Shown here one piece after another: positions 884 through 36,942 of a stretch of DNA of 64,000 nucleotides (position 1 is its first letter; each line of letters starts with the position of its first letter). The stretch covers positions 1 to 64,000 of the forward strand of contig JABCTC010000020.1 in the NCBI GenBank assembly GCA_018238545.1, given 5' to 3'. Position numbers and translations under genes: made by a program. This DNA is from Candidatus Heimdallarchaeota archaeon. Lineage in GTDB: Archaea; Asgardarchaeota; Heimdallarchaeia; Heimdallarchaeales; Heimdallarchaeaceae. The notes under the pieces were generated by a model. That model searched no databases and was not told the origin of the DNA. It saw nothing but the letters and a program-made list of their open reading frames with translations.

Positions 884-1504
884 ATGTATCTAGTTTTCAG
901 AGGACTCATGGACTACCATTTAACTACTCCAATACCACCCGAAGAACTGAAAAAAATCAGGATTGGGGATATAGTGTACCTGACAGGTACAGTTGTCACT
1001 GCTAGAGATGAAGCTCATCTTAAGGCATTAGAACTTCACAAAGAAGGTAAAGAACTACCTGTGAATTTCACCGGTATAGGACTTTTTCATTGTGGTCCAG
1101 TAATGAAAAAGAATGTTGATGATGAGTGGATAGTTGTTGCTGCAGGACCAACTACATCTGCAAGAATGGAAATCTTTCAAGATGAATTCATTAAAGTGTT
1201 TCATCCTGGAATAATCATTGGTAAAGGTGGAATGGGTGAAAAAACTGCCAAAGCGTGTCAAGAAGAAACTTGCATCTATGGATACTTCACTGGTGGAGCA
1301 GCTCTATTAGCAGCTGACAGAATAAAGAAGGTAAGGGATGTTTTTTGGTATGAAGAACTAGGAATGCCAGAATCACTCTGGGTATACGAAGTTGAAGAGT
1401 TTGGACCTTTAACTATAACAATAGACACCCATGGTGGGAATTTAACTGATGAGAGCAAAAAGAAAATAGAAGAAAACAAAAATAAGATTCTGCAAGAACT
1501 TTAG
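884..1504 (+). CDS. fumB: Fumarate hydratase class I, beta subunit (C-terminal domain type); start may be the internal ATG at 908
   Basis: HLTTPIPPEELKKIRIGDIVYLTGTVVTARDEAH...GPTTSARME...IIGKGGMG...ITIDTHGGNL, typical beta domain of class I fumarase/tartrate dehydratase. Confidence 0.92.
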   Translation: MYLVFRGLMDYHLTTPIPPEELKKIRIGDIVYLTGTVVTARDEAHLKALELHKEGKELPVNFTGIGLFHCGPVMKKNVDDEWIVVAAGPTTSARMEIFQDEFIKVFHPGIIIGKGGMGEKTAKACQEETCIYGYFTGGAALLAADRIKKVRDVFWYEELGMPESLWVYEVEEFGPLTITIDTHGGNLTDESKKKIEENKNKILQEL

Positions 1505-1610
1505 AGATATTTTGTGAGATTATTCTTTTTTCTCAGACTTATCGTCGTTTTTTTCACATTTTTCTTTAGTTTATAAACCAATTGTGTTATTATATTATTG
1601 AGTAACATAA

Positions 1611-4331
1611 ATGTCAACCAATTCAGGAGAAGAAGAAACCTATAATCACATCAGCCTAGATGATTTAAAACTGGAAATTCAAGAGGAATTAAAGAATATC
1701 AGAAGTGTAAAGAAAACTTTGCGTAAATTAAGCAAAGAAATCAAGTATTCCCAAGAATATAAATTCTCTGAGAAGAATGAAATTAGAATAAACACAGAAT
1801 TCATTAAACACAAATATACTTGCAATAAGGAGATTCTCGCTGGTAGTATTTCAATAAAAGAACATCTAGCTTATGTATTCAAAGAATCGGTTAAAGGATC
1901 TAGAATATTAAGAAATGCTATTCAAATAACAGGTATTGATATTGACCAAAATTCTACTGACTGGATAAAACATCTTCTTAATGATATGTCAAATTTGAAT
2001 CACATTTTTGGTATCCTAAATGAAAATAGTTCCCGAAATATCATAGAATTGACAAATTTCTATCTCAAACAGTATAATGTTTCAGAGAAAGGTAAATTTA
2101 ACCTATTAAAGAGAGATAATTGTTCAGATGATCTAAAAAATTACGTGTGCAAACTTGAATGTGTAGAGGCTGATTCTTATGTTCGTGTACTCCTAACTAA
2201 ATGTGGTGTTCATGGAATTACCAGCACACATTCTGCTGAATACTTTCTTAAAGCATTTATTAAATTACACTTTGAAAATGACTCGATAAGAAGGCACTGG
2301 TTTAAATCTAAAAATCAAAAATCATTTAATAAAGTCCTTGTTAAAGGACTAAAAGGTAAATTTTCCAGTTCAAATGGCTTTGATGATATTCTGTTAACAG
2401 TATCTGGGAAAGACAAGTCTGAAAAATTTGATTTAAAGACTGTTGAAATGAAAGTAGGAGATGATTTGGGGAGCTTTTTCGATTACATTAGAACAAACAA
2501 AAATACAAAATTTACCTCTCAAATATGTGATGATATTGACAGTTTTCTTGCAATCAGATATAAACAATTAGTAAATAACAATATTGATTCTGAGCTTGCT
2601 AATAACATAATAGTGAATTTAAACAATAAATACAAATTTACAGCATCAGGGATAGGTTACAATTTTAATATTAAGATTAAATCTGACAATCTACGTAATG
2701 TTCTCATAGGTGCTGGGTTGACACAAGATAAAACTAATCGGATTTTAGAGGGAGCTATAAAACAGAACCAGTTGATTTCACTTATGCAGCATGGAAGTGC
2801 TCATAAGATGGTGAAAAAGAAAGGATATTATACAACAATAGACGAAATTGTTCATGATATAGAGTTTAAAGTTAAAATTAACGATAAAAACAAAGAAAAA
2901 TACGTGATTGTAAAGATACATCGTGATATGTTCTTACCAAAATTTGTTATAAGAGATAATGGTAAGCTAATTCTAGAAATTGAAGGTTTTAGTTCTGTTC
3001 TACAGAAATTGGTCAATGAGAAAAACAAGACATCAGATCAATATAAAGCCTACATGAAACTCAAAATTATATTTAATAGTGCTTTGGTTGAATTGAACTC
3101 ATGTGAAATTAGCTATAATACTTCTGCTGAAGAGGTTGTTGGAAATCTGAATGAAGTGCATCAATCAATTTATTTTGAAATAATCAAACATTGTAGGGAT
3201 GGTTTATTTGAAGAACTATCTGTTTTTGAAAATGGAAGAATGTCTCACTGTTTGGAAACGATAAGTAATCTAGGTCAGAAAACCAGGGAACAACTTAAAA
3301 AACATTTCAAAAGCAAAAGTATTGTACCTTATACGTTTCATCAACATTGGCAAACACTTTATTCTCTAGAGAAAGCATTCCAATTAAAAGGCATGATTGC
3401 AAATTCCTCACCAGTGAACGGTTGGATGATTCTGAAAAATAGATATATTGGAAAAATGCTTCCTAATGACATTGTTGAAATTTGCGAAGTAGCAAATATT
3501 TGGAATGAATTTCTAGAAGATTCAAATTGGTTTCAAAAGATATTAAGAGATTTACCACCACCCTACAAAATTCCAGATGGATTTAATCTCAATCATCGAG
3601 CTCATATCATTAGACCAATTATTTTTTTTGATAAACAATTAATGACTCCAGTTATTGTAAAGGGATATAATAATAGAAATCAATGGTTTGGAGTTAAGAT
3701 AGATATTAACAAGTTTTTTGAGGAAAAAACTTCTTTTAGTAAATATCTGTTTCAATTTCCGATCAAGATCAACATTAAGGGGGTTGAATTCAGTCAATCA
3801 GAGGAAATTGTAAAAGCATGGAAAGAACGTCTTATCTACACTGGAGTTCCAGAGGAGCAGGTTAATCTTCTTGGAACTAAGTATAATTTACGAAATGCAG
3901 AAGGTTGCTTTAATGTCAAAATTTTATTTGCAGTTATTTTTGAATTCAGAAATGTTTGGAACGAATTTTCTACATGGATTCGAGAATTTATTCAAACTAC
4001 AAATGAGTGGAGCAAGGTTTTACCAAGTTCAGTGGACCAAATATGTGGTTCAAGACTACGAGTAGTAAATGAACAAATTCAATATGATAATTCAGGAAAA
4101 GGTGATTGGAGAGAAGTGCTACTTGGTCTAGGATCAATGCATGGCAAGGAAATGTGGAATGTACGGAAAGACATTAAACGTTCCTTTGTTTTTCCTTCAC
4201 AAAACAAACTATTCAATAAACTAATCGAAGATATTCAATACCAGATTTGGAAACTAATACCTGAATCACCTCAAAACATAGATGTAAATGAAATCTGGAG
4301 TTTTATCATCTCTAACTGGAATGCATTATGA
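1611..4331 (+). CDS. Large hypothetical protein (906 aa), no recognisable domain
   Basis: Long uninterrupted ORF, Lys/Asn/Ile rich; no signal peptide, TM segment or familiar motif seen. Confidence 0.8.
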   Translation: MSTNSGEEETYNHISLDDLKLEIQEELKNIRSVKKTLRKLSKEIKYSQEYKFSEKNEIRINTEFIKHKYTCNKEILAGSISIKEHLAYVFKESVKGSRILRNAIQITGIDIDQNSTDWIKHLLNDMSNLNHIFGILNENSSRNIIELTNFYLKQYNVSEKGKFNLLKRDNCSDDLKNYVCKLECVEADSYVRVLLTKCGVHGITSTHSAEYFLKAFIKLHFENDSIRRHWFKSKNQKSFNKVLVKGLKGKFSSSNGFDDILLTVSGKDKSEKFDLKTVEMKVGDDLGSFFDYIRTNKNTKFTSQICDDIDSFLAIRYKQLVNNNIDSELANNIIVNLNNKYKFTASGIGYNFNIKIKSDNLRNVLIGAGLTQDKTNRILEGAIKQNQLISLMQHGSAHKMVKKKGYYTTIDEIVHDIEFKVKINDKNKEKYVIVKIHRDMFLPKFVIRDNGKLILEIEGFSSVLQKLVNEKNKTSDQYKAYMKLKIIFNSALVELNSCEISYNTSAEEVVGNLNEVHQSIYFEIIKHCRDGLFEELSVFENGRMSHCLETISNLGQKTREQLKKHFKSKSIVPYTFHQHWQTLYSLEKAFQLKGMIANSSPVNGWMILKNRYIGKMLPNDIVEICEVANIWNEFLEDSNWFQKILRDLPPPYKIPDGFNLNHRAHIIRPIIFFDKQLMTPVIVKGYNNRNQWFGVKIDINKFFEEKTSFSKYLFQFPIKINIKGVEFSQSEEIVKAWKERLIYTGVPEEQVNLLGTKYNLRNAEGCFNVKILFAVIFEFRNVWNEFSTWIREFIQTTNEWSKVLPSSVDQICGSRLRVVNEQIQYDNSGKGDWREVLLGLGSMHGKEMWNVRKDIKRSFVFPSQNKLFNKLIEDIQYQIWKLIPESPQNIDVNEIWSFIISNWNAL

Positions 4332-4406
4332 TAGTAAACCACTTCCAGAATCCTTAAAATTAACGATTCTCTATGTTCTAGTTAGGATATAAAAAGGAAA
4401 TCAATC

Positions 4407-6215
4407 ATGAATAAAAAAATTGGCGTTTTGTTTTTAATTTTGTTTTTTAGTTCTCCATACTTTTTGAAACCAGCTGAAGCAAGTGTAAATATCGCATTTT
4501 ACATTGATTTACTTTCACCAAACACAGACCCTGAAAGAAATCAATGGATTATGTTGATCCAAGAACAGCTTTCAAAAATAGGGATAGGAGTAAGACTACA
4601 TGAATCAACAACTTGGGATAACATTGCTCCTCGTACATGGAGTTATCCCTTAATTGATTATGATTATATTCCAACATATGCTGAGGGCGGTTATGATTTG
4701 CTCTTCGTTAAGTGGTCTTGGGATCTTGATTGGGATCCTACAGATCTTTATAGCAGTCGATGTTTATATCCTAGTGGAAACAATTTTTACCAATATAATA
4801 ATACCACATTTGATGCTAAATTAGATAAATATTTGACAGAATTTGATCCAATTCTACGCAATAAATATTCTCATGATATGCAAAAAATACTCTATGAAGA
4901 CTTGCCTTCAATATGTATTGTCTATCCAAGATTCCTCTTCGCGTATTCTACCAATAGCAGTTACATTGATTGGTTTTTACTATCAATTTCCAATCATCGT
5001 GCTGAAAATTGGCTAGATTATTATGATAGTGTCATCAAATATGCTATTCCTGAAAAGCTCACAGAACCAAATATTTTTGTTCAAAAGACATTCTATGACG
5101 CTCAGTGGATGCAATGTGTCTATGGATCTTTGTATCAAAGAGCTCGGTATAACCATGAATGGGAACCTGTTATTGCAACAGATGCTGTTTATAGTTCTGA
5201 TTATAAGAACTTAACAATTACAATCGATCCAAATGCTAAATTTAGTGATGGAAGCCCAGTTCTTGCTGAAGATGTAAAGTACTCTTATGAATTGTATATG
5301 ACTCCTGCTGTTCATTCATCGAATTACGATTATCTAACAAAGTGGTTTACAACCAATGATTCAATTGAAATTGTTAATCCATATACTCTGAACTTCAATC
5401 TAACTCAAGTGTACACTTTTGCACACAGTTTGCTGTCTTATAGTATTGTGGATAAGAGTATTGCTGATCCAGCTATCGCAGCTTATGGATATAACATTTT
5501 TAACGAAATTCCATTAACGGGGAATGTACTTGATACATTAGTCAAATCTTGTGGTCCTTTCATGTTGGATGTATATGATTCAGTTAACGGTTCAGTTAAG
5601 CTTCTTCCTAATCCTTACTGGAACAACCTTACTGCTTCTAGGGGAATACAACCACTTTTGGATGAATTATATTTTATTCCTTTCTCTAACACTGATTTTG
5701 TTCATTCAGAATTACTCGCAGGCCATATCGATATCATGGATTACCACTTTGAACCTCTCCCATGTATTTTTTGGGATTTTGGAAGTTATGATTGTTACTT
5801 AGTGAAAGAACTTGCTCATGAAGAAATAGCTATTAACTTAAAGCACCCAATTATTGGTACTGGAGAATTAACCCCCGTTGGAACTCCTGAAGCAGCTAGG
5901 TTGATTCGTAAAGCTATAAGTCATGTTATACCAAGATCTGAAATCTCTGATAGTTTATCCTATTTACCCCGACCTGGAATTATACCTATGCCTGATTCTT
6001 GTATAGGATTTGATGATAGTTTGACACCTTATCGTTATGAGCTTGATTCTGCAATATACTATATCGAACAAGCAGGATATTGTGTTGAAGGACCTTGTTC
6101 TGTAACACAGATAACAGCAGAAAACTGCTTACTCATTCTTTGTATTTTAGGATTATCCAGTTTCTATTTAATTTACAAAAGAAAACCTTCTTTCAATAGA
6201 ATGAATAATAGGTGA
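4407..6215 (+). CDS. Secreted, membrane-anchored ABC-type substrate-binding protein, family 5 (peptide/nickel type), apparently circularly permuted
   Basis: N-terminal signal peptide; SBP_bac_5-like segments (KFSDGSPVLAEDVKYSYELYM; CGPFMLDVYDSVNGSVKLLPNPYW; AARLIRKAISHVIPRSEI); C-terminal TM plus KRK. Confidence 0.8.
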   Translation: MNKKIGVLFLILFFSSPYFLKPAEASVNIAFYIDLLSPNTDPERNQWIMLIQEQLSKIGIGVRLHESTTWDNIAPRTWSYPLIDYDYIPTYAEGGYDLLFVKWSWDLDWDPTDLYSSRCLYPSGNNFYQYNNTTFDAKLDKYLTEFDPILRNKYSHDMQKILYEDLPSICIVYPRFLFAYSTNSSYIDWFLLSISNHRAENWLDYYDSVIKYAIPEKLTEPNIFVQKTFYDAQWMQCVYGSLYQRARYNHEWEPVIATDAVYSSDYKNLTITIDPNAKFSDGSPVLAEDVKYSYELYMTPAVHSSNYDYLTKWFTTNDSIEIVNPYTLNFNLTQVYTFAHSLLSYSIVDKSIADPAIAAYGYNIFNEIPLTGNVLDTLVKSCGPFMLDVYDSVNGSVKLLPNPYWNNLTASRGIQPLLDELYFIPFSNTDFVHSELLAGHIDIMDYHFEPLPCIFWDFGSYDCYLVKELAHEEIAINLKHPIIGTGELTPVGTPEAARLIRKAISHVIPRSEISDSLSYLPRPGIIPMPDSCIGFDDSLTPYRYELDSAIYYIEQAGYCVEGPCSVTQITAENCLLILCILGLSSFYLIYKRKPSFNRMNNR

Positions 6216-6421
6216 ATAATATCTTGAGAATAAGAAAATCAACTAAGTTTTTCTGATAAAATTGGCTTAATGGGTGCTCTAAAATAAGAAAAAAAAGAGG
6301 ATTTTAGCTTAGAATATTAAGTGATAAATTTTTTTGCTTGTTCATAGCACAAAGTTTTAATTTAATTTGTCTTTTCCAGTAAATGAATCTGATAACAATT
6401 CATAGTTCTTGCAAAGAGTGT

Positions 6422-6553
6422 CTTTGGGTTTACGAAGTTGAAGAGTTTGGACCATTAACTATAACGATAGACACCCACGGTGGAAACTTTACTGAGGATT
6501 CAAAGAAGAATATTGCTGCAAATCGTGATAAGATTTTGCAGGAGTTGAACTAG
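6422..6553 (+). pseudogene. Orphan 3' remnant of a fumarase beta subunit gene
   Basis: LWVYEVEEFGPLTITIDTHGGNFTEDSKKNIAANRDKILQELN* closely matches the C-terminus of the 884-1504 product; no 5' part is present. Confidence 0.88.
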
Positions 6554-6554
6554 T

Positions 6555-7433
6555 ATGAAGGATATAGCACAAGTAGTAGAAGATACAGCTGCACGGTTAC
6601 TGAAAATCGCTGCAACAATTTTACCTACAGAGGTAAAAAACACATTAATCAAAGATGAGAAAGAGACAGAAGGAAGTTTAGGCAAGTCTCAATTACATGC
6701 AATTAATGAAAATGTTAACATTGCTGAAACACAAAGTAAACCAATGTGCCAAGATACCGGTCTTGTAGCCTTTTTCGTAAAAATCGGTGATAAGTTCCCA
6801 ATTAGATCAGAAGTAAAAACAGCTCTAATTGAAGCAACAAAGAAAGCAACTTCTAATGTGCCTCTCAGACCAAATGCTGTAGATATGTTCAAGGGTAACA
6901 CAAAGAATAATGTTGGATTAAGAGGTTATGTTCCTTGGTTCTACTTTGATTTAGTAGAAGGAGATAAGTGCGAAATTATAGCACTACCTAAGGGTGGTGG
7001 ATCCAGCAACGTCGGAAAAATGAAGATGATTCCACCAGGAAAAGGTATCAAAGGTGTTAAAGAATTTGTAGTTGAAGCAGTAGCTGCTGCTGGACCTTTA
7101 GGTTGTCCCCCATATACAGTTGGTGTTGGTGTTGGAGGAGGAGAAGATATGTGTATGAATCTTGGTAAGAAAGCTCTTCTGAGACCTCTTTATGAATATC
7201 ATGAAGACGAAAAGATAGCCGATTTGGAAAAAGAGATGTTACAAATATTGAACAAACTTGAAATTGGTGCTATGGGACTAGGAGAAGGATCATCTGTACT
7301 AGATGTTCATATGGAATTCGCTGCAAGACATCCTGCATCATTACCTGTAGGAGTAGTTATCTCTTGTTGGGCATTGCGACATGCTGGTGCAACAATAGAT
7401 AAAGAAGGAAATGTGGAATACCACCCACAATAA
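6555..7433 (+). CDS. fumA: Fumarate hydratase class I, alpha subunit
   Basis: QSKPMCQDTGLVAFFVKIGDKFP...LPKGGGSSNVGKMKMIPPGKG...AAGPLGCPPYTVGVGVGGGEDM, class I fumarase alpha motifs. Confidence 0.95.
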   Translation: MKDIAQVVEDTAARLLKIAATILPTEVKNTLIKDEKETEGSLGKSQLHAINENVNIAETQSKPMCQDTGLVAFFVKIGDKFPIRSEVKTALIEATKKATSNVPLRPNAVDMFKGNTKNNVGLRGYVPWFYFDLVEGDKCEIIALPKGGGSSNVGKMKMIPPGKGIKGVKEFVVEAVAAAGPLGCPPYTVGVGVGGGEDMCMNLGKKALLRPLYEYHEDEKIADLEKEMLQILNKLEIGAMGLGEGSSVLDVHMEFAARHPASLPVGVVISCWALRHAGATIDKEGNVEYHPQ

Positions 7434-25006: not shown

Positions 25007-26677
25007 TTAACAGGAATCTTCGTATAGTTTAACTAACCTGTCTCTAACTGCTTCACTTCTATATTCAGGAAGAATCATTGGCGAATATCTTTTTTCTTTC
25101 ATTTTTAAAGCATCTAATGTTTCTATTGTTTTCCTTACATGATCCAAAGATAATTTTCCTGGATTTCCACCTTTCTTTTTGTATTCTTTAGCTGCTGTTA
25201 TACCTGCTCGTCTTCCGAATACATTTACTTCTAATAGTGAATTACCCATTAAACGATTCTTTCCATGAACTCCGCCAGAGATTTCGCCTGCTGCTAAAAG
25301 ACCTTTGAGCGAAGTATAACAGTTTTCATTATGTAAAACTCCTCCATTTTGATAGTGGAGTGTCGGATAAACAAGAATGGGATCTTTAGTGATATCAATA
25401 TCGAAACGTTGCATCATTCGATACATGGCACTTAGATTTTTCTCAATTGTACCTTTTCCTTTTAGTTCTTCTATCAATGGGCTGTCCAACCAAATACCTC
25501 TCATACCTGTAGGCGTTTCAATGTAATTATCTGTGGATGCACAACATTTGATAAATGAAGAAGCTTCAACATCTCTTGGTTCAAGTGGATAACAAATTTG
25601 TTCTCCATCGTATCCTAATACTTGTCCTCCTAGACTTCTGACTTTCTCAGTTATGAGCAGCCCGAGTATTTGCTCTGGAAAAGCAGCACCTGTAGGGTGG
25701 AATTGGGTAGATTCAAGATTTCGGAGTTTAGCTCCTGCGCGATAAGCTATTACTAATCCATCAGCTGTAGCTCCATAATGGTTAGTTGTTGGAAAACCAG
25801 CAACATGTAATCTACCAAAACCACCTGTTGTTAAGATTGTAACTTTAGCTTTAACTACGAAATACTGCTTAGTTTCGATGTTATAAAGAATAGTTCCAAC
25901 AATTCTTCCTGTTTCATCTGTTAGTAGTTCAACAGCTGGAGAAAATTCTAGGACTGGGATTTCCTTGTTGATGACTTCATCTTTCAAAGTACGGAAAATT
26001 TCCATTCCTGTGTAATCTTTTGAACAGTGCATTCTATTTCTAGATGTACCACCACCTGGATTTTCAACAAAACTTCCATCTGGGTTTTGGTCATACATTA
26101 TCCCTAGTTCTTTGTGCCATTGAATGATTTTTGGTCCATCATTCACTAGAGCTTTTGCCAATTTAGGTTTATTATCAAAATGCCCACCACCTAAAACATC
26201 AAGGTAATGAATGAGAGGAGAATCTACTGGACGATCTGCAGCTTGAATGCCTCCTTGAGCCATAACAGTGTTACAATCACCCAATCTTAATTTAGTAACA
26301 ATTAAGATTTTATCTGCTGGTACTCCTTCTTTTACTGCCCATAAAGCAGCTGAATTGCCTGCACCACCAGCTCCAATTATTAGCACACCAACATCATAAT
26401 CAATTTGAGATAAATCAATATCATCAGGGTTAACTACTGGGTAAGCCTCGATTACATCTGCTACTTCATTAGGTATGTTAATGCCCTTGTTGGGTCCCCA
26501 TCTCAGATCTCTTTTAAATTTTGGATTGTAATCTGGATGATAATTATCAAGCACTTCTTTTCTTTCAGCTTCAGTTAAATCTGCTTTAATTTCAGTCAAA
26601 CGTTTAGCTCTAGTTTTGTTAACATTTTCTATGCTTTTGCGCATATTTTCAGGATATCCTCTTATCATCATAATCAC
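25007..26677 (-). CDS. Fumarate reductase/succinate dehydrogenase-type flavoprotein (soluble, TfrA-like)
   Basis: VGVLIIGAGGAGNSAALWAVKEG...NTVMAQGGIQAA...STQFHPTGA...GGVLHNENCYTSLKGLLAAGEISGGVHGKNRLMGNSLLEVNVFGRRAG. Confidence 0.93.
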   Translation of the reverse strand: MIMMIRGYPENMRKSIENVNKTRAKRLTEIKADLTEAERKEVLDNYHPDYNPKFKRDLRWGPNKGINIPNEVADVIEAYPVVNPDDIDLSQIDYDVGVLIIGAGGAGNSAALWAVKEGVPADKILIVTKLRLGDCNTVMAQGGIQAADRPVDSPLIHYLDVLGGGHFDNKPKLAKALVNDGPKIIQWHKELGIMYDQNPDGSFVENPGGGTSRNRMHCSKDYTGMEIFRTLKDEVINKEIPVLEFSPAVELLTDETGRIVGTILYNIETKQYFVVKAKVTILTTGGFGRLHVAGFPTTNHYGATADGLVIAYRAGAKLRNLESTQFHPTGAAFPEQILGLLITEKVRSLGGQVLGYDGEQICYPLEPRDVEASSFIKCCASTDNYIETPTGMRGIWLDSPLIEELKGKGTIEKNLSAMYRMMQRFDIDITKDPILVYPTLHYQNGGVLHNENCYTSLKGLLAAGEISGGVHGKNRLMGNSLLEVNVFGRRAGITAAKEYKKKGGNPGKLSLDHVRKTIETLDALKMKEKRYSPMILPEYRSEAVRDRLVKLYEDSC

Positions 26678-27399
26678 GCCTTTTTCTGATCAACAAAATC
26701 TCTTTCATGATAATATTTGTGTCGTAATTTATCCTCAGGAAGAGACATAAGTTCTTTGAACCCTTCTTCAAAAACACCATCTTCAATTTCTCTTACTCTC
26801 TTTTCAAGAGTTTCTGGAGGTTTCATATTATATTTTCCGTGTAGTCTTCTTACTAAAGTAGCTACATGATATTGTGGGATTTCAGCAGGGCAACGAATTG
26901 CACATAAACCGCATTGCACACAGTCAAAACTCACTGCAGCTGCTTTATCGATTTCCCCATGCAAGCAATGTTGCACATAATCCATAACTTGAATTTCTTG
27001 TGGGCATACTCTTGAGCAAGCGTTGCAACTTAGACATCGAGCCACTTCAGGATAGTAACGAAGTATTGTACTTGCTATAGGATCAAGAGTGTCAATATCA
27101 TATTTTGCTTTATTTGCAGGAACGAAGGGCATTTGTGTGAGATACATTCCTTCTTCAACTTGAGTTTGGCAAGCTAAAGCGGTGTATATTCTGAAATCTC
27201 CTTCCTTGCGATAAACGGTAGCACACGCTCCACAAAAGCCAGCACGACATCCACTGCCTCTTGTAAGTTTGAATCCCGCATATTCTATTGCTTTCATTAT
27301 GGTTAATGATGAAGGAACTTCATACATGCTCCCCATAATGTAAATTTTTACCATCTGGGTTTGATTTTCTGCTTTTGTTTTTGATTTTGTTTTTGCCAT
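26674..27399 (-). CDS. Fumarate reductase/succinate dehydrogenase-type iron-sulfur subunit
   Basis: GSGCRAGFCGACATVYR (2Fe-2S-like) and CLSCNACSRVCPQE, CVQCGLCAIRCPAEI. Confidence 0.9.
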   Translation of the reverse strand: MAKTKSKTKAENQTQMVKIYIMGSMYEVPSSLTIMKAIEYAGFKLTRGSGCRAGFCGACATVYRKEGDFRIYTALACQTQVEEGMYLTQMPFVPANKAKYDIDTLDPIASTILRYYPEVARCLSCNACSRVCPQEIQVMDYVQHCLHGEIDKAAAVSFDCVQCGLCAIRCPAEIPQYHVATLVRRLHGKYNMKPPETLEKRVREIEDGVFEEGFKELMSLPEDKLRHKYYHERDFVDQKKA

Positions 27400-27409
27400 T
27401 TTTAACCCT

Positions 27410-28318
27410 CTATTTCTTTTTCCCTAGTAGTCCTAACTCTTTAAGTAAGGTTTTTGGATTTATGTGATGATCTTCAAAATGATTTACTTTTTGTGGTAAT
27501 CCCATTGCTATAGCCATCAGTTGTGTAAAATAAAAAATGGGTATGGGATCTTTTTCTACACCTAGTTTTTCTAATTCTACTTGTTGATTATCAAGATTAT
27601 AAGCACACAAAGGACATGCTACGATCAAAGCATTTGCGCCAGTTTTCTTTGCATTTCTGATGATTTTAACAACTTGAGAATTTACAATATCGTCTCTATC
27701 TACAATATGATAGGAACCACAACATTGTTTGAAGTAAGGCCAATCAACTACTTCAGCTCCCAATGATAGAGCAATACTTTCCATAACTGTGGGCATCTCT
27801 TCGTCATCTATTTTAGCTTTTTCTGGATGTAGAAGCATACAGCCATAATACGAAGCAATTTTCATCCCCTCTAATGGATTAGTTACTTTTTTTGCGATAT
27901 TTTCATAACCAACATTGTCTCTGAGAATTTCTAGAAAATGCTTAACTTCCATATCTCCCTCGTAAACTAAATCATCGTTTTCTAGTTGAAAATTAATTTT
28001 CTCAAGATCATTTGGATTTTCTTTTACTTCTGCATTTACTATTTTCAAAGTAGAATTACACATTGAACATAAGGTTGTAACTTGATTAGGAGAACCCTCT
28101 AATTCTTTAACATGTTTTGATGCTCTAGATAGAACTCTAACTGGAGCAATCCTTCTCATTAAATTATCAGTTGTCATGGTTTGAACTGTTCCACAACAAT
28201 TCCATTCAGGCATTTCTACTAGTTCCGCATCTAATTCTTTAGATACAGCAATTGCTGATTGTTCAAATCCTTTGGCTTCAGTTTTTAAATTACACCCGGG
28301 AAAGTAGGAATTTTTCAT
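27410..28318 (-). CDS. hdrB: HdrB-like heterodisulfide reductase subunit B (two CCG domains)
   Basis: YFPGCNLKTEAKG...EWNCCGTVQT...LCSMCNSTLKIVN...YYGCMLLHP...KQCCGSYHIVDR...CPLCAYNLD. Confidence 0.93.
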   Translation of the reverse strand: MKNSYFPGCNLKTEAKGFEQSAIAVSKELDAELVEMPEWNCCGTVQTMTTDNLMRRIAPVRVLSRASKHVKELEGSPNQVTTLCSMCNSTLKIVNAEVKENPNDLEKINFQLENDDLVYEGDMEVKHFLEILRDNVGYENIAKKVTNPLEGMKIASYYGCMLLHPEKAKIDDEEMPTVMESIALSLGAEVVDWPYFKQCCGSYHIVDRDDIVNSQVVKIIRNAKKTGANALIVACPLCAYNLDNQQVELEKLGVEKDPIPIFYFTQLMAIAMGLPQKVNHFEDHHINPKTLLKELGLLGKKK

Positions 28319-28330
28319 TTATTCACCTTA

Positions 28331-28744
28331 TTATAATTCTGATTTTTTACGGAAGCTCCCAACCAATGCAATATTGGGTATCTTCTTCAACAACTCTTCT
28401 GGCAAATCTAGCCTCTCAATTGTTTCTGGTTCATAGCGTAAGGTATACTCACGTATAGCTTCCATAACGGCTGCAACATCAATTTCTCTTGGACATCGAA
28501 CAGTACATGTTAAGCAACTTGCACATACCCAATGGGTATTTGATTGCAGAACCTTCTCCTTTTTTCCTAATTGTACAAGTTGCATTGTATGATTTATTGT
28601 TTTTTCCATAAGGTTACTAAAAGCGCAACCAGCAGAACATTTTCCGCATTGATAACAACTAAAGATGTTCTGTCCAGATATTTCTTCTATCTTTGAAGTG
28701 AACTCTTTTTCAGATTCTCCAAATTCTATATAATCATAAGACAT
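28331..28744 (-). CDS. hdrC: HdrC-like heterodisulfide reductase subunit C
   Basis: CYQCGKCSAGCAFSNLM and CASCLTCTVRCPREIDVAAVMEAIREY. Confidence 0.92.
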   Translation of the reverse strand: MSYDYIEFGESEKEFTSKIEEISGQNIFSCYQCGKCSAGCAFSNLMEKTINHTMQLVQLGKKEKVLQSNTHWVCASCLTCTVRCPREIDVAAVMEAIREYTLRYEPETIERLDLPEELLKKIPNIALVGSFRKKSEL

Positions 28745-28755
28745 ATTTTTCGCCT

Positions 28756-30723
28756 CTACTCTTCTCCTAAAGCTTGTATCATTGCAAGGATTTGCTTGTC
28801 TTCAAAGCCAAATTGGTTTATGGCACCATTCAAACATGCAGCTGCGCATGATCCACACCCCTTACATAGTGCTTCATTGACAGAAGCTACCTTGTAGGTA
28901 TTTCCAAATCTTTTAGTGTCTATCAAAGTGATTGCACTATAAGGACATGTTTCCACACAGACTCCGCAACCTCTACATAACATTTCATCAACATGAGCAA
29001 TGGTTGCTTCAACCTCTATCTCATCTTGAGCTATAATATTGCATGCTCTTACTGCAGCTCTTCCTGCTTGTGACACTGTCTCTGGGATATCTTTTGGTCC
29101 AGTTGCACACCCGGCAACGAATACTCCAGTAATTGAAGTTTCAACTGGTTTTAGTTTTGGGTGAGCTTCTTTGATGAATCCATTAATACCAAGAGAGAGC
29201 CTTAATACACTTGCTATATCTTTTGTTCCTTGACTTGGGATAATACCTGTTGCAAGCACAACTAAATCTGCATGTAGTTCGACTGTTTCAGCAGTTAGTG
29301 TATTTACACCTTTAACTAAAATCTCATCTCCATCTTGTATTAGTTCAGAAACTTTTCCTCTGATGTAAACAACTTTTGCTTCTTCTGCTGCTCTTTGATA
29401 AAACTCCTCGTAATCTTTTCCTCCAGTACGTATATCTATGTAGAAATTGACTGCGGTTCCATCACGTACTTCATGTTTGAACATTAAAGCTTGTTTAGTG
29501 GAATACATACAGCAGATTTTAGAGCAGTATGGTAAGTGCTTTGCCGGATCTCTTGAACCAGCACAGTGGATGAAGACAACGTTTTTCACCAATTTTCCGT
29601 CAGAAGGTCTTCTTAAAGCTCCGGTTGACGGTCCTCCTGGAGATATCAATCTCTCAAAATCTAGGCCTGTAATAACATCAGGTATATTGCCTTGTCCATA
29701 TTCTCCAAGATTTTCTATTGGGTATGTATCATATCCTGTAGCAACGACAATAGCACCAAACTCATCCTCAATTATCTCAGGTTTCATGTCAAAATCAATG
29801 GCTTCAGGGCCACAAACATCTTTGCATTTAGAGCATATGAGAGGGTCAATACCTAAACAATCGTCAGGATCAATAATATATGATGCGGGAATAGCTTGAG
29901 GAAATGCAATATAAATCGCTTTACGCGGCGATAAGTTCTGGTTGTACTCATCATGAGCAATAACAGGACAAACAGCAACACAATCATCACACATTGTACA
30001 TTTATCTTCAATTACATAGCGTGGTTTCTTCTTTATTTTAACTTCGAAATTACCAACATAACCGTCAACTTGTTCCACTTCAGCATTGGCAATTAGAGTG
30101 ATGTTAGGATTACGTCCTACATCAACCATTTTAGGACTCAGAATACATGCAGAACAATCTAATGTTGGAAAAGTCTTATCTAATTGAGCCATTTTTCCTC
30201 CAATGGATGAAGTTTTTTCAACAAGTGTTACTTGATAACCTGATCCTGCAATATCTAATGCTGCTTGTATTCCTGCAATTCCTGCTCCTATTACAAGTGC
30301 TTTGTGAGTAACTCCTACCTTTTTCCTATCCAAAGGTTCCATTAGAGCAGATCGCATAACAGAACTCTTTACTAATGATTTCGCTTTTTTAGTGCCTTTC
30401 TTTTTATCGTCATGAACCCATGAAACCTGTTCACGAATATTGACTATTTCTAGTGTATAAGGATTCAATCCCTTATCCTCAATCGCAGCTCTAAAAGTAG
30501 GTTCATGCATTCTGGGGGAACAAGCTGCAACTATTACTTTATCTAGTTTCAGTTCTTCAATATCCTTCTTAATAAGTTCTTGACCAGGATCAGCACACAT
30601 ATACTTGTAAACTCGACTGCTGGCTACATAAGGAAGAGATTTTGCATAATCTACTACCTTTTCAACATCAACAGTTGCAGATATATTTTTTCCACATTCA
30701 CAAACGTAAACACCTATGCGCAT
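28756..30723 (-). CDS. hdrA: HdrA-like heterodisulfide reductase subunit A
   Basis: MRIGVYVCECGKNIS...CSPRMHEPTFR...ALVIGAGIAGIQAALDIA...GGKMAQLDKTFPTLDCSACILSPKM, several 4Fe-4S motifs. Confidence 0.96.
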   Translation of the reverse strand: MRIGVYVCECGKNISATVDVEKVVDYAKSLPYVASSRVYKYMCADPGQELIKKDIEELKLDKVIVAACSPRMHEPTFRAAIEDKGLNPYTLEIVNIREQVSWVHDDKKKGTKKAKSLVKSSVMRSALMEPLDRKKVGVTHKALVIGAGIAGIQAALDIAGSGYQVTLVEKTSSIGGKMAQLDKTFPTLDCSACILSPKMVDVGRNPNITLIANAEVEQVDGYVGNFEVKIKKKPRYVIEDKCTMCDDCVAVCPVIAHDEYNQNLSPRKAIYIAFPQAIPASYIIDPDDCLGIDPLICSKCKDVCGPEAIDFDMKPEIIEDEFGAIVVATGYDTYPIENLGEYGQGNIPDVITGLDFERLISPGGPSTGALRRPSDGKLVKNVVFIHCAGSRDPAKHLPYCSKICCMYSTKQALMFKHEVRDGTAVNFYIDIRTGGKDYEEFYQRAAEEAKVVYIRGKVSELIQDGDEILVKGVNTLTAETVELHADLVVLATGIIPSQGTKDIASVLRLSLGINGFIKEAHPKLKPVETSITGVFVAGCATGPKDIPETVSQAGRAAVRACNIIAQDEIEVEATIAHVDEMLCRGCGVCVETCPYSAITLIDTKRFGNTYKVASVNEALCKGCGSCAAACLNGAINQFGFEDKQILAMIQALGEE

Positions 30724-30725
30724 CT

Positions 30726-31571
30726 TTACAAATCTCCTTCAAGGTTTTTTAACTGAGCATTTGAGAATACTGGGCCATCTTTGCAAACATAAAGATTACC
30801 AATATTGCATCGTCCACAAATTCCAACTCCGCATTTCATTCTCATTTCTAGAGTTGTAAATATTTGTTCATCTTTGAATCCTAATTCTAGTAAGTTTTGA
30901 ATAACAAATTTAATCATTATTGGGGGACCACAAGTTATTGCAATTGTATTTTTTGATGGGGGTTTAACTCTGAGCAGATTAGAAGGGACAAATCCCACGA
31001 ACTCTTCCCATCCTTCTTCTACTACATCAATAGAGAGATGCACGTTTACATCTTCACGTTTTTGTAGCTCAGCAAATTCATCCTTGAAACATAAATCATT
31101 TGATGTTCTTGCCCCATAGATAATATCTAGATTACCATATTGATCTCTATTTTTATCAGCAAGAGTATAGTTGGCTATGGATCTTAATGGTGCCATTCCG
31201 ATACCTCCTCCTATGAAAACAATATTCTTGTTTTTCCATCCTTCTACGTCAAAATGATTACCATAAGGTCCTCTTACACCCACTGTATCTCCCACTTCTG
31301 TTTCATGCAAGGCTGAAGTATTTATTCCTTGTTTCATCACACTTACTTCAAGATAATCTTTCTCTGTTGATGAGGATGAAATTGCAAACATGCTTTCACC
31401 TTTACCTAGCCTACTGATCATGACGCACTGACCAGGAACAAAATTGAACTCTTTTTGGATTTTTTTATCTTGCATTACTAACTTGAACGTCTTTATCGCT
31501 CTTTCTCCAGTAACCTCGACTTTTATCTTCTCAATAGTTGCCAACACAGGTTGGTATGGATTTTCTGTCAT
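30726..31571 (-). CDS. FAD/NAD-binding oxidoreductase, sulfhydrogenase gamma / AsrB-like
   Basis: FVPGQCVMISRLGKGESMFAISSS...GVRGPYGNHFDVEGWKNKNIVFIGGGIGMAPLRS...MKCGVGICGRCNIGNLYVCKDGPVFS. Confidence 0.9.
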   Translation of the reverse strand: MTENPYQPVLATIEKIKVEVTGERAIKTFKLVMQDKKIQKEFNFVPGQCVMISRLGKGESMFAISSSSTEKDYLEVSVMKQGINTSALHETEVGDTVGVRGPYGNHFDVEGWKNKNIVFIGGGIGMAPLRSIANYTLADKNRDQYGNLDIIYGARTSNDLCFKDEFAELQKREDVNVHLSIDVVEEGWEEFVGFVPSNLLRVKPPSKNTIAITCGPPIMIKFVIQNLLELGFKDEQIFTTLEMRMKCGVGICGRCNIGNLYVCKDGPVFSNAQLKNLEGDL

Positions 31572-32593
31572 AGTTCCATCTCACTTACTCGGTTCATTAA
31601 TTCAATAATATCTATATTTACAGGACAATATCTGATGCACCGACCACATCCTGTACATGCGATAACATCAGAATTTTTTGGAAAGTAACTGTATTTGCAA
31701 TAAAATCTATTTCTCACTCTATTCATTCTCGCTGGACGCGGATTATGTCCTGAAGTATGTATCGTATATTCAGGGAACATACATGAATCCCAGACACGAA
31801 TTCTAGCTCCTTTATCTAGCGTACCCTCATCAAGCATGTCAAAACATCGGCAAGTCATGCACAGATATGTGCAAGCTCCACATCCTATACATTTTTTAGC
31901 ATATTCTTCCCAAATTGGATGATCAAACATTTTATCCATTTTTTCTTCTATGCCCTCTACTTTCAAATTTCGTTTTATTAATCCGATTGCTTCTTGCTCT
32001 TTGGCATTCTTTGCTTCTATCTCCTTTGATGAAGCAGGTGAGAAAAATCTGCTGAAATCGTTAATAAAGTCCTTCCCCTTTTCAGTCATAACTTCTACTA
32101 AGTAGTTCTCTTCTATATCCGTAAATAGAATATCAACATATTTTCCAGAAGCAGGACTATCACCAAATGAAGTACAAAAACAACTTGAATCAGGTTGATT
32201 ACAGCTCAACCCAATTAAAACACTGTTGTCTCTATTGGCTTTGTATAAAGGATCAACAACATCACCAAAAAACACTGTATCAAGTATCCTAAAACCTTTA
32301 GCATCACAAGGTCTAATAGCAAAAATTGCTGTTTTTTCATTTCTAATTTCTTTAGGTTTAATAGTTCCTTTTGTACCAGGTTCCATTAGAAAGAGCGTTT
32401 CAGTTTGATTGAACAATATTGCTTTGGGGGGCATTCTAGAATTTAAATAAGATAAATCCATCTCTGAATAATCTTTTATAATATTGAAACCAGAAAATCC
32501 ATTCTCCTCTGTGGGAGCGAATAATCTGTAGCTTTTTACTATAGTATTGATGATTTCCGGGAATTTTTCTTTTGATATTATTAGACTTTCCAT
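31568..32593 (-). CDS. 4Fe-4S dicluster protein, sulfhydrogenase beta / AsrA-like
   Basis: IFAIRPCDAKGFRILDTVFFGDVVDPLYKANRDNSVLIGLSCNQPDSSCFCTSFG...CIGCGACTYLCMTCRCFDM...CTGCGRCIRYCPVNIDI. Confidence 0.9.
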   Translation of the reverse strand: MESLIISKEKFPEIINTIVKSYRLFAPTEENGFSGFNIIKDYSEMDLSYLNSRMPPKAILFNQTETLFLMEPGTKGTIKPKEIRNEKTAIFAIRPCDAKGFRILDTVFFGDVVDPLYKANRDNSVLIGLSCNQPDSSCFCTSFGDSPASGKYVDILFTDIEENYLVEVMTEKGKDFINDFSRFFSPASSKEIEAKNAKEQEAIGLIKRNLKVEGIEEKMDKMFDHPIWEEYAKKCIGCGACTYLCMTCRCFDMLDEGTLDKGARIRVWDSCMFPEYTIHTSGHNPRPARMNRVRNRFYCKYSYFPKNSDVIACTGCGRCIRYCPVNIDIIELMNRVSEMEL

Positions 32594-32602
32594 TTCTTCA
32601 CT

Positions 32603-33586
32603 TCACTTTATGAATTCTTCGGGATCATCAGGATTGAAGCTACCAAGCAATGGTTTGGCATCAATATCCAGTCCTGGTGTATATTCAAACATTTCTTTTA
32701 CTTCTTCCCCTAACTTTTTGTTTAATTCCATTAAGGGTATGTCCATTGGGCAAGCGTTTTCACATGCTCCACATCCTACACATCTCCCCGCTAGGTGATA
32801 CGCTCGCATGATATTCCATGCAGTATTTTCAGAAAGATTAACAGATCTCCTAATCCATTGTGGTTCCAGTAAATCAGCCATACATGTACTACAATAGCAT
32901 AATGGACAAGCTTCTCTACAAGCATAACAACGGATACATCTTTGAAATTGCTTTTCCCAATATTCCCATCTATTTTCTAAAGTTGCTTCTTCCAATTTTT
33001 TTATTCCTTCGTATTCTGCTTTGGGATTAACTTCAACTTCTTCTCCGATCATAACATCATATAATACGGGATTTGGATACCCACAAGTTTTACAGACTTC
33101 AGCTAAGAGTTCTTGTTTTGGAATTTTATGCTCTTTTCCTTCAACTGTAAAAACATATTCATCATTAATTTCATCTATTTCAGTAATTTCTGATTGGTTT
33201 GGAAATCTCTTCTCTATCTCTTTTTGATCAATTACACCTGGGCATGGAATACCTATTAATACAACCTCTTCTCTTTTCATTCCATTTTCCTGAATGATTT
33301 GAACAATTGCTCTTGAATCGCATCCTTTTACAACGATACCTATTTTTCTCTTATCTTCTTCTTCTCCTCTTTTCAGAGGTAGTTTTTCTTCCTTAAGTGG
33401 ATATTTCGCTAGATTTTTGTTACATAGAGGAGTAAAAATGAATTCTTCAACATCTTTAGGAGTATATGCGAATGCTGCACTTGTCTGAAATCCGTATGAT
33501 CCTTTTTTATAGCCAATAATATACTTAACATCTTTTCTTGCAAGTGTTTCTTTGGCAACTTCAACAAGTTTTTTCTGATCTACCAT
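32603..33586 (-). CDS. 4Fe-4S protein with FrhB-like N-terminal region
   Basis: GIVVKGCDSRAIVQIIQENGMKREEVVLIGIPCPGVID...CIRCYACREACPLCYC...CVGCGACENACPMDIPL. Confidence 0.85.
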   Translation of the reverse strand: MVDQKKLVEVAKETLARKDVKYIIGYKKGSYGFQTSAAFAYTPKDVEEFIFTPLCNKNLAKYPLKEEKLPLKRGEEEDKRKIGIVVKGCDSRAIVQIIQENGMKREEVVLIGIPCPGVIDQKEIEKRFPNQSEITEIDEINDEYVFTVEGKEHKIPKQELLAEVCKTCGYPNPVLYDVMIGEEVEVNPKAEYEGIKKLEEATLENRWEYWEKQFQRCIRCYACREACPLCYCSTCMADLLEPQWIRRSVNLSENTAWNIMRAYHLAGRCVGCGACENACPMDIPLMELNKKLGEEVKEMFEYTPGLDIDAKPLLGSFNPDDPEEFIK

Positions 33587-34005
33587 TCGTTCTTCCTCCT
33601 AATTTTAGTGTTAGGTCCTAATTTTCTAATTTCTTCAGTTACCTCATCAACAACATCAGCGAACTTTCTTCCTTCAGCTGCAGAAACCCATGCCATCTTA
33701 ACCCTCTCTGGGTTAATTCCCATGAATTCAAGCAATTTTTTCATAACAGATATTCTTCTTCTTGCAAGATAGTTTCCGTGTTGATAATGACAATCGCCTG
33801 GATGGCAACCACCAATTAAAACTCCATCAGCACCTTGTTGTAATGCATTAATAACAAACATAGGGTTAACTCTTCCTGAACACATAACCCGAATAACTTT
33901 GACATTGTGTGAGTATTGAATCCTGCTAGTACCAGCGAGGTCGGCTCCTGCATATGAGCACCAGTTGCACAAGAAACCAATAATATTAGGTTCGAAATCT
34001 TCCAT
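33580..34005 (-). CDS. mvhD: MvhD-like hydrogenase/heterodisulfide reductase delta subunit
   Basis: MEDFEPNIIGFLCNWCSYAGADLAGTSRIQYSHNVKVIRVMCSGRVNPMFVINALQQGADGVLIGGCHPGDCHYQHGNYLARRR. Internal ATG at 34005 preferred over the ORF-track start at 34074, which overlaps korC. Confidence 0.93.
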   Translation of the reverse strand: MEDFEPNIIGFLCNWCSYAGADLAGTSRIQYSHNVKVIRVMCSGRVNPMFVINALQQGADGVLIGGCHPGDCHYQHGNYLARRRISVMKKLLEFMGINPERVKMAWVSAAEGRKFADVVDEVTEEIRKLGPNTKIRRKNEW

Positions 34006-34039
34006 CGTTATACGCCTAATTCCATGTATTTTTGAATAA

Positions 34040-34579
34040 TCATTTGTGATTCTTTCCCTTTTCGAAAGCAACAAGATTTTTCTCGATGAACCTTGCTCGC
34101 ACCTTCGCTTTCATGACTTGAACAAAAGCCTCTTCAGAGAAAAGATCAGTGTTGGCACATACAAAACCTAACATCGCTATATTAGCATATAAACGACTTC
34201 CAAGAGTTTCTGCTATTGCGGTTGCGGGTATTTTGTGAATTTTGCTGGCTTTCTTTGCATGGTCATCTAAAGTTACAAGGTTTTCCTCAACAAAGATAAT
34301 TCCACCTTCTTTCAAACGGGGGATATATTTGTGATAAGCTTCTTCAGACATTACAACAAAATAATCAAATGCTGTAGATTTAGGATAATCAATGGTTTGA
34401 GTATCAATCACAACATCACAACTACTAGCTCCTCCTCTGCTTTCAGGACCATAACTCTGTGTCATTACTGAATTCTTACCTTCTTCGTGAAGACTAATGA
34501 CTTCTCCAACAAGCCTTCCCATGAGAGCAATTCCTTGCCCACCAAATCCAGCAAAACGAATTTCTATTCTGTCACTCAT
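34040..34579 (-). CDS. korC: 2-oxoacid:ferredoxin oxidoreductase gamma subunit
   Basis: IRFAGFGGQGIALMGRLVGEVISLHEEGKNSVMTQSYGPESRGGASSCDVVI. Confidence 0.93.
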   Translation of the reverse strand: MSDRIEIRFAGFGGQGIALMGRLVGEVISLHEEGKNSVMTQSYGPESRGGASSCDVVIDTQTIDYPKSTAFDYFVVMSEEAYHKYIPRLKEGGIIFVEENLVTLDDHAKKASKIHKIPATAIAETLGSRLYANIAMLGFVCANTDLFSEEAFVQVMKAKVRARFIEKNLVAFEKGKNHK

Positions 34580-34581
34580 TT

Positions 34582-35451
34582 TTATGCCCCCTTATCTTTA
34601 GATGCTGTCGACATTCTTTGAATGCTAAGTAAATTGTCAGTCAAAGTTGGTTTATCATGAATATCTACAAATTTACCTACAATAATTGGTCCTTCCTTGC
34701 CAATTGCGACTTTTTCTGTATCTATTCCGTGTTCAATCACTGATCGTTCCTTAAATGCTTCTAATATTGCTATCCCTTCTCTTAATTGGTTTCTTCTACC
34801 ATAAGTTGTTGGACATGCACCTAATACCTCAACAAAAGAGAACCCTTGGTGATTGATTGCTTCAACAAAAGATTCTTTCACTCTTCTGACATCTAAGGCT
34901 GTCCATCTTGCAATATAAGTAGCCCCGCATGACTTCACTAGTTCTGGCAAATTGAAAGGTTCCTCGATATTACCATAGGGGGCAGTAGTCTGAACTTGAC
35001 CTTTATATGAAGTAGGCCCCACTTGTCCACCAGTCATACCATATTGAAAATTGTTTACGCAAATAACTGTGATGTTAGCATTTCTTCTTGCTGCGTGAAT
35101 CAGATGATTTCCACCTATTGAAGCGAGATCTCCATCACCTGAGATGACAATAATTTTTCTGTTGGGGTCAGTTAGACCAAGACCAATAGCAAAAGGTATT
35201 GCTCTCCCATGTGTTGTGTGGAAAGAATCGAAATTCAAATATCCTGCTGTTCGACCGGTACATCCAATACCTGAGATAACTGCAATATTTTTTTGTTCTA
35301 TTCCTGATTCTTTTATTGCTTCTATTATCACTGTCATGACTGAACCCAAACTACATCCGGGACACCAAATGTGTGGTATTCTCCCCTTCCTTAGATAACC
35401 ATCAAGAGGGTGTTCCTCTGCTTCTATCAAACCAATTTCTTCTTCGGTCAT
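34582..35451 (-). CDS. korB: 2-oxoacid:ferredoxin oxidoreductase beta subunit (TPP-binding)
   Basis: IWCPGCSLGSVMTVIIEAI...SGIGCTGRTAGYLNFDSFHTTHGRAIPFAIGLGLTDPNRKIIVISGDGDLASIGGNHLIHAARRN. Confidence 0.94.
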   Translation of the reverse strand: MTEEEIGLIEAEEHPLDGYLRKGRIPHIWCPGCSLGSVMTVIIEAIKESGIEQKNIAVISGIGCTGRTAGYLNFDSFHTTHGRAIPFAIGLGLTDPNRKIIVISGDGDLASIGGNHLIHAARRNANITVICVNNFQYGMTGGQVGPTSYKGQVQTTAPYGNIEEPFNLPELVKSCGATYIARWTALDVRRVKESFVEAINHQGFSFVEVLGACPTTYGRRNQLREGIAILEAFKERSVIEHGIDTEKVAIGKEGPIIVGKFVDIHDKPTLTDNLLSIQRMSTASKDKGA

Positions 35452-36614: not shown

Positions 36615-36942
36615 CTTCCATTTCCTCCTCTTCTACAGGTTTTTTGACAAAAATAGCGAATTCAGGACATATTAGTTCACAGAAATGACATTCAGTACAG
36701 TTCTCGAATGTTTTTCCTTCAATAAGTCTTGGTGGATGATATCCCTTCTCGTTGATTTCATCGGATAATTCCAGTATTTCTTCTGGGCAAAATTCTATAC
36801 ACCACCTACATTCTTTGCATCTAGAAGAAATAATGTGAATCTCAGGTGTAACTATTTTCCATTCTTTAATATCTACAAAAGCAGGCCATTCTGCTTTTTT
36901 CTTTTTCCGATCAAAACTATAGTTCATCAATGAATCCCGCAA
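36607..36942 (-). CDS. korD: 2-oxoacid:ferredoxin oxidoreductase delta (ferredoxin) subunit
   Basis: CKECRWCIEFCPEEIL...CTECHFCELICPEFAIFV immediately before and overlapping korA. Confidence 0.9.
   Translation of the reverse strand: MRDSLMNYSFDRKKKKAEWPAFVDIKEWKIVTPEIHIISSRCKECRWCIEFCPEEILELSDEINEKGYHPPRLIEGKTFENCTECHFCELICPEFAIFVKKPVEEEEMEVE

Follow-up and report, generated by a model that had tools for sequence, protein, structure and literature searches.

A probable homing-type mobile element that restores the 3' end of a fumarase gene and carries captured cargo in a Heimdallarchaeaceae genome

Why does the 3' end of a fumarase beta gene (fumB) occur twice, about 5 kb apart, on either side of unrelated DNA in an archaeal genome? 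The window analysed here is a stretch of 64,000 nt from a Candidatus Heimdallarchaeota archaeon (genome G000; contig JABCTC010000020.1, positions 1 to 64,000). The end of fumB at 1369-1497 reappears at 6415-6543 (129 nt, 78% identity, spacing 5,046), and a protein search within the window aligns the gene end with the downstream orphan over 44 residues (78-80% identity, E=1.7e-13). The two copies share an identical 23-nt block (1385-1407 and 6431-6453), and the stop codon of the orphan (6551-6553) is followed after 1 nt by the ATG of the fumarase alpha gene, fumA, at 6555. No further fumB match was found elsewhere in the source genome by a genome search. The duplicated end, the shared block and the position of the orphan directly before fumA had all been read correctly in the original prediction, which also proposed that some 5 kb had been inserted into a beta-alpha operon from 1385 onwards. 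The insertion is real, but its breakpoint lies upstream of the 23-nt block: homology of the orphan to the uninterrupted (empty) alleles of relatives starts exactly at GA[A/G]TG (codons E-C-L-W), and the insertion therefore spans 1370-6415 (5,046 bp). The locus is composed as follows.

884-1369, plus strand: native 5' part of the chimeric fumB (Pfam Fumerase_C, E=1e-42 over the whole ORF; tracks the host phylogeny); the homologous start is probably the ATG at 908
1370-1504, plus strand: element-borne fumB 3' end of 135 nt (E-S-L-W... to the stop), which restores the gene and forms the left end of the insertion (GAATC junction; member of the clade of seven element-side ends, 100/98)
1611-4331, plus strand: orfX, a 906-aa putative mobility protein (candidate PD-(D/E)XK-like nuclease), with a homologue in each filled fumB allele of this type
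2238-2453, plus strand: candidate catalytic residues of orfX, E210 (2238-2240), F257-D258 (2379-2384) and E279-x-K281 (2445-2453)
about 4335-6284, plus strand: captured segment, 95% identical to an insertion adjoining formate-THF ligase in a relative (G006, locus L197, 10335-8387)
4407-6215, plus strand: family-5 extracellular solute-binding protein (SBP) gene, cargo in the captured segment (Pfam SBP_bac_5, E=4.7e-37; 93% aa identity to L197)
6240-6284, plus strand: 45-nt formate-THF ligase fragment (residues about 499-515; 89-93% nt identity to ligase genes), a remnant orphan end carried with the SBP gene
6309-6415, plus strand: right end of the fumB-type element (83% identity to the same end in G002)
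6416-6553, plus strand: the orphan, the host's own fumB 3' end, now separated from its gene by the insertion (clusters with empty alleles and the orphans of close relatives)
6555-7433, plus strand: fumA, fumarase alpha, originally directly 3' of fumB (Pfam Fumerase, E=1.5e-83; adjoins fumB in empty relatives)

Elsewhere in the window, 26674-36942 is densely packed with minus-strand genes that appear redox-like when judged by eye (2Fe-2S/heterodisulfide-reductase-like and 2-oxoacid-oxidoreductase-like ORFs).

The distribution of empty and filled alleles provides the first clues on the history of this locus. The empty beta-alpha arrangement is present in 13 relatives (G004, G006, G009, G011, G012, G014, G015 and G017-G022), in all of which the fumB stop and the fumA start are no more than about 10 nt apart. 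Six genomes of a single genus carry the insertion with an orfX homologue (G000, G001, G002, G007, G008 and G010; the filled loci of G002 and G007 are each split across two contigs), the orfX copies in filled fumB alleles being 47-99% identical to one another. The G015 metagenome-assembled genome (MAG) holds both states: beside its empty allele, a 3.3-kb contig carries a filled variant whose left flank equals the empty contig exactly over 123 nt and whose right end runs back into fumB beyond the start of the orphan. Thus, the element is segregating in the population, or between near strains that were binned together. In all filled genomes and in this strain variant the insertion sits at the same fumB nucleotide; the orphan starts with GA[A/G]TG in every filled case except G010 (GATTG), and the junction reads GAATC in all filled alleles versus GA[A/G]TG in 12 of the 13 empty ones. 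The simple fumB elements of four genomes measure 3,075, 3,083, 3,090 and 3,119 bp, with a core layout of diverged fumB 3' end, orfX and a short right end. Two full tandem fumB copies were found in no relative. An assembly artefact can be ruled out, since the same junction recurs in independent MAGs, in some of them deep within contigs (a 144-kb contig in G001).

Some variants around fumB and fumA deserve a separate mention. The empty fumB of G011 (L043, G011:C117) has an element-type junction codon, TCA (serine), and is perhaps a resistant or post-loss allele. In G014 (L046, G014:C287, 3015-3125) a displaced, frameshifted fumB end itself looks element-type, as if a second insertion had entered a filled allele. 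In G003 (L035, G003:C76, 4974-9987) two opposite-strand genes follow fumB-fumA, and behind them lie another fumB 3' end and a complete additional fumA (88.9% identity); orfX is absent, and the restoring segment may be longer here or a different process may be at work. In G001 (L032, G001:C3, 3535-3735) the fumA 3' end, too, has a second copy, which lies 3' of fumA beyond a 222-aa secreted-type protein.

Separate trees for the two parts of fumB reveal different histories. The 5' part tracks the host: filled genomes are scattered in its tree, and grouping them is rejected (p=3e-7). In the tree of the 3' part all seven element-side ends form one clade (support 100/98) and the orphans group with empty alleles, a split that is strongly supported even though the alignment is short (132 columns). 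The same is seen in pairwise comparisons, G007 and G010 being 96.8% identical in the 5' part and 75.0% in the 3' part, and G010 and G001 79.3% and 89.4%, respectively, while the element-side ends of G007 and the G015 variant are identical. The orphans, in turn, resemble the empty alleles of close species (96.2% identity in G007, 93.9% in G002, 91.9% in G010 and 88.6% in G000). Thus, fumB in the filled genomes is a chimera with an element-borne end, and two further suggestions of the original prediction, namely that the native 3' end was left behind and that the gene was restored by a diverged copy brought by the insert, hold good. Synonymous divergence additionally shows horizontal transfer of the element: in three pairs orfX dS is lower than host dS (0.47 vs 1.3-2.4, 0.24 vs 0.40-0.47 and 0.05 vs 0.16-0.30), and the close hosts G007 and G010 (dS about 0.1) bear distant elements (orfX dS 1.7). 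The elements and their gene ends move together between species.

The window copy is larger than the simple elements, and its matches to relatives form a patchwork. Positions 1507-4329 are 91% identical to G002; the G006 counterpart of 4335-6284 sits between formate-THF ligase pieces and comprises the SBP gene and the 45-nt ligase orphan end; at 6309-6409 the sequence is again that of the fumB-element end. Hence the predicted single insert resolves into two parts, a 3.1-kb element and 1.95 kb captured from another gene-end insertion. Judged by these matches, the window copy is a composite whose SBP gene was captured from an insertion in formate-THF ligase.

The original prediction had seen no known recombinase in the insert. 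This holds as far as integrase and transposase domains are concerned, yet orfX, the 906-aa ORF and sole protein encoded by the core element of about 3.1 kb, probably acts as the mobility protein. The protein has no match in Pfam, PHROG, NCBIfam, PADLOC or PDB (against Pfam, nothing at E<=5 but one chance match), and we consider it an apparently new family. Among 13 divergent homologues, which include parts of giant proteins, E210, F257-D258 and K281 are invariant and E279 is retained in 12. A structural model of residues 171-470 (pLDDT 78.5, pTM 0.77; pLDDT 67 for the whole protein) predicts a helix with the glutamate, a strand, a strand starting after the aspartate, a strand ending at ExK and a helix; conserved residues and predicted order thus place the helix E, and then D and (D/E)xK on adjacent strands, as in PD-(D/E)XK nucleases. 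Foldseek searches of PDB with the whole model and with the putative nuclease region gave no significant match (HinP1I, MspJI and Dna2 at E about 1-2), and so the nuclease reading rests on the motif and the predicted strand order. On these grounds nuclease activity is likely. The gene is under purifying selection (dN/dS 0.15-0.28), and of 228 Asgard genomes 16 contain the family, almost all of them belonging to this genus; G022, a relative with a 3.33-Mb single-contig genome, has one degraded copy only. As to a possible relation to the Otus/Ephialtes giant proteins, that single degraded match in G022 was all that emerged; a viral origin was dismissed, a single-protein search of IMG/VR yielding no relative and PHROG no match. 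Loci L072, L107, L113, L111 and L117 encode very large proteins, of up to >2,979 aa and devoid of convincing Pfam matches, in which an orfX-like domain accounts for the C-terminal part or for most of the length; the candidate active-site residues are retained in those inspected (L072, L107, L113 and L111).

Two unrelated genes, those for formate-THF ligase (FTHFS) and for a Rab-like GTPase, show insertions with the same anatomy, and the orfX copies of each form a clade apart. The tree of orfX C-termini separates fumB, FTHFS and GTPase clades with support of 97-100; therefore, the target follows the protein lineage. In the GTPase, the DTGGQE codons (residue 74/75) form the beginning of the orphans in G011, G015 (three orphans) and G020, and four of the five share a conserved element right end, which closes with TGTATTGAAATAT immediately before AC[A/T]GG. 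The G011 GTPase is 94.5% identical to that of G010 in its 5' part and 78.4% in its 3' part, with the G011 orphan matching G010 at 96.1%; tree tests find the host grouping compatible with the 5' part (p=0.485) and rejected by the 3' part (p=6e-6). At least six genomes have displaced FTHFS ends, often two of them one after the other; the junction is at codon ~280 in three cases, and in some genomes orfX or its remnants lie convergent next to the FTHFS stop. In G010, the middle part of FTHFS matches the orfX-adjoining copy of G016 at 98.3% identity, and the orphan, at its very end, matches an ordinary relative at 97%. Some gene-end insertions have no recognisable orfX (G001, G005 and G006 at FTHFS, G003 at fumB-fumA); orfX may therefore act in trans, be lost or be unneeded. 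A scan of ~480 kb (the window and G001) recovered C-terminal tandem duplications at fumB, fumA and FTHFS only, and a general repeat habit of these genomes was rejected on that account.

Further arrangements were noted in passing. In L192 (G001:C3), L193 (G005:C137) and L197 (G006:C17), FTHFS is followed by two displaced 3' ends in series, array-like and with no recognisable orfX, and the cargo includes P-type-ATPase-like, serine-hydrolase-like and repeat-rich secreted proteins and the SBP gene. G015 (L112, G015:C4, 752-1015 and 5194-5928) shows a mirror image: a second copy of the N-terminal 77 residues of an alpha/beta-hydrolase-like gene precedes the complete gene and is separated from it by orfX and ligase remnants. 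An ABC-transporter ATPase 3' fragment lies near an orfX homologue in L122 (16273-16656) and is a possible further target.

What is observed is that the insertion is precise, that the gene is restored and its native end displaced, that gene end and orfX are transferred together, and that the lineages are target-specific. To connect these observations, we put forward that window 1370-6415 is probably a homing-type mobile element that restores gene 3' ends and has acquired captured cargo. Here, orfX would be a site-specific endonuclease that cuts an uninterrupted target near CCN/GA[A/G]TG, and the filled allele would serve as repair template, so that the element is copied into the cut site, the gene end that it carries keeping fumB functional. 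The junction change from TGY to TCR (C to S) on the element side would remove the target and confer immunity, and the displaced native end would also be immune because it lacks the left half-site. A free form of the element was not observed. A broader proposition, which we advance tentatively and rate at a little under an even chance, is that orfX represents a new family of site-specific mobility proteins that have repeatedly replaced the ends of core genes in Heimdallarchaeaceae with diverged copies, one gene per clade, the sites then docking foreign cassettes and the core genes turning chimeric.

The main rival to homing is precise site-specific integration, in which a circular element would be inserted by orfX, acting as an integrase or transposase of a new type, with the gene end as an arm of the attachment site. 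Borders are sharp on both sides with flanks native up to the junction, unit length is constant, and the serial orphans at FTHFS and the GTPase look like tandem integrations. No flank conversion was detected, the left flank being native as far as the junction, which fits homing with little resection as well as precise integration. However, neither the window insert nor orfX contains an integrase or transposase domain (the ORFs of the other inserts were read by eye for integrase), identity at the crossover amounts to just 4 nt (GAAT), too short for the usual core of a tyrosine recombinase, terminal inverted or direct repeats are lacking, and the conserved residues of orfX resemble those of a nuclease. 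End comparisons in five elements did not exceed the level of shuffled sequence, which does not fit a DNA transposon or insertion sequence. Weakened by the missing recombinase domain, identical core and terminal repeats, this route seems to us unlikely, if worth serious consideration. In an alternative scenario, circular fragments from related species (a gene end and the genes downstream) would integrate by homology through a Campbell-type single crossover, with orfX as mere cargo. Such an event would leave the same anatomy of chimera, cargo and orphan; the products encoded in several gene-end insertions are all secreted or transport proteins, and the FTHFS piece moved as a block with the SBP gene. 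Homology would scatter the crossovers, and so the fixed junctions (the same nucleotide or codon in eight fumB alleles, at GTPase codons 74/75 in five orphans and at FTHFS codon ~280 in three cases) speak against it, as do the limitation of matches to a few genes in the ~480 kb scan and the fit between orfX clades and targets; we regard it as quite improbable.

That orfX is a toxin-like or defence nuclease, its original role being that of a C-terminal domain of giant proteins and the gene-end duplications a by-product of its location, is suggested by homologues located C-terminally in proteins of >2,979, ~1,872 and ~1,418 aa. Nevertheless, PADLOC gives no match, no partner gene is constant among the inserts, and the co-divergence of gene end and orfX and the target-matched orfX clades would go unexplained, making this highly improbable. 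Ordinary tandem duplication of fumB, with decay of the second copy and unrelated genes between, would also leave a truncated copy, and G003 does have a real duplication of the fumB end and fumA; the original prediction had named a similar course, divergent duplication and then deletion, as its alternative. Trees and empty alleles contradict tandem duplication and decay: the upstream end is foreign and the orphan native, most relatives are empty, the junction is shared and orfX is found in all cases of this type. We give duplication and decay practically no weight.

If homing is the correct reading, the gene-end-restoring homing of fungal mitochondria would also operate on the chromosomes of archaea close to eukaryotes, through an unrelated protein. 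The insertion hotspots at fumarase, formate-THF ligase and the GTPase would be accounted for, and chimeric core metabolic and Rab-like GTPase genes could mislead phylogenies of eukaryogenesis unless their ends are removed. In this context, orfX would stand for a protein family with no recognised fold whose lineages each seem bound to a single coding site, a link open to direct test.

Integrase-borne islands and prophages are known to occupy the 3' ends of protein-coding or tRNA genes, e14 in icd being an example. As in these, an element-borne 3' end restores the gene and the native end lies on the other side; in contrast, the window insert and orfX contain no tyrosine or serine integrase domain, the junctions share almost no identical core beyond GAAT and the protein is of an unfamiliar kind. 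Inteins and self-splicing introns do not fit either, since the element's own gene end has a stop codon and the downstream end remains an orphan. In phage free-standing homing endonucleases, to our knowledge, gene splitting and a replacement end are not usual. They likewise are non-intron ORFs that lie beside their target and spread by being copied into alleles lacking them (PMC2988022, PMC6083498), but they belong to different protein families. PD-(D/E)XK is one of six known homing-endonuclease families according to PMC6083498; no sequence link between orfX and PD-(D/E)XK homing endonucleases was found. Within the same archaeal group, the mobile elements described are the Heimdallarchaeum aloposons, which encode giant proteins, and HeimM2, with a homing-endonuclease homologue beside 16S rRNA (PMC8813620). 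Unlike the window element, they are located at tRNA or rRNA genes and differ in gene content, and restoration of protein-coding genes is not reported in PMC8813620; tandem giant genes at a tRNA gene, as in aloposons, are not seen here, the window having no tRNA and the element a single 906-aa ORF. The closest parallel is provided by the mobile-ORF (mORF) elements of fungal mitochondria, known from atp6 of Allomyces macrogynus and from atp6, atp9, cox2 and nad3 of Glomus, which use LAGLIDADG or GIY-YIG enzymes (PMC3630166). Both are inserted in the 3' part of a conserved gene, bring a diverged C-terminal end and one ORF (an endonuclease in mORF elements, a putative one in orfX), push the native end downstream and affect several genes; in both, the inserted end has a foreign phylogeny and the native end that of the host, and here too relatives retain the uninterrupted allele. 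The present elements differ in residing on an archaeal chromosome rather than in mitochondria, in a protein of ~900 aa in which Pfam recognises no LAGLIDADG or GIY-YIG domain and whose nuclease is putative, and in their extra cargo and serial arrays. We found no prokaryotic counterpart of gene-end-restoring elements in the open literature, which does not prove absence. Thus, on this comparison, the gene-end-restoring architecture was already known from fungal mitochondria, and what would be new here is the archaeal host together with an apparently new protein family.
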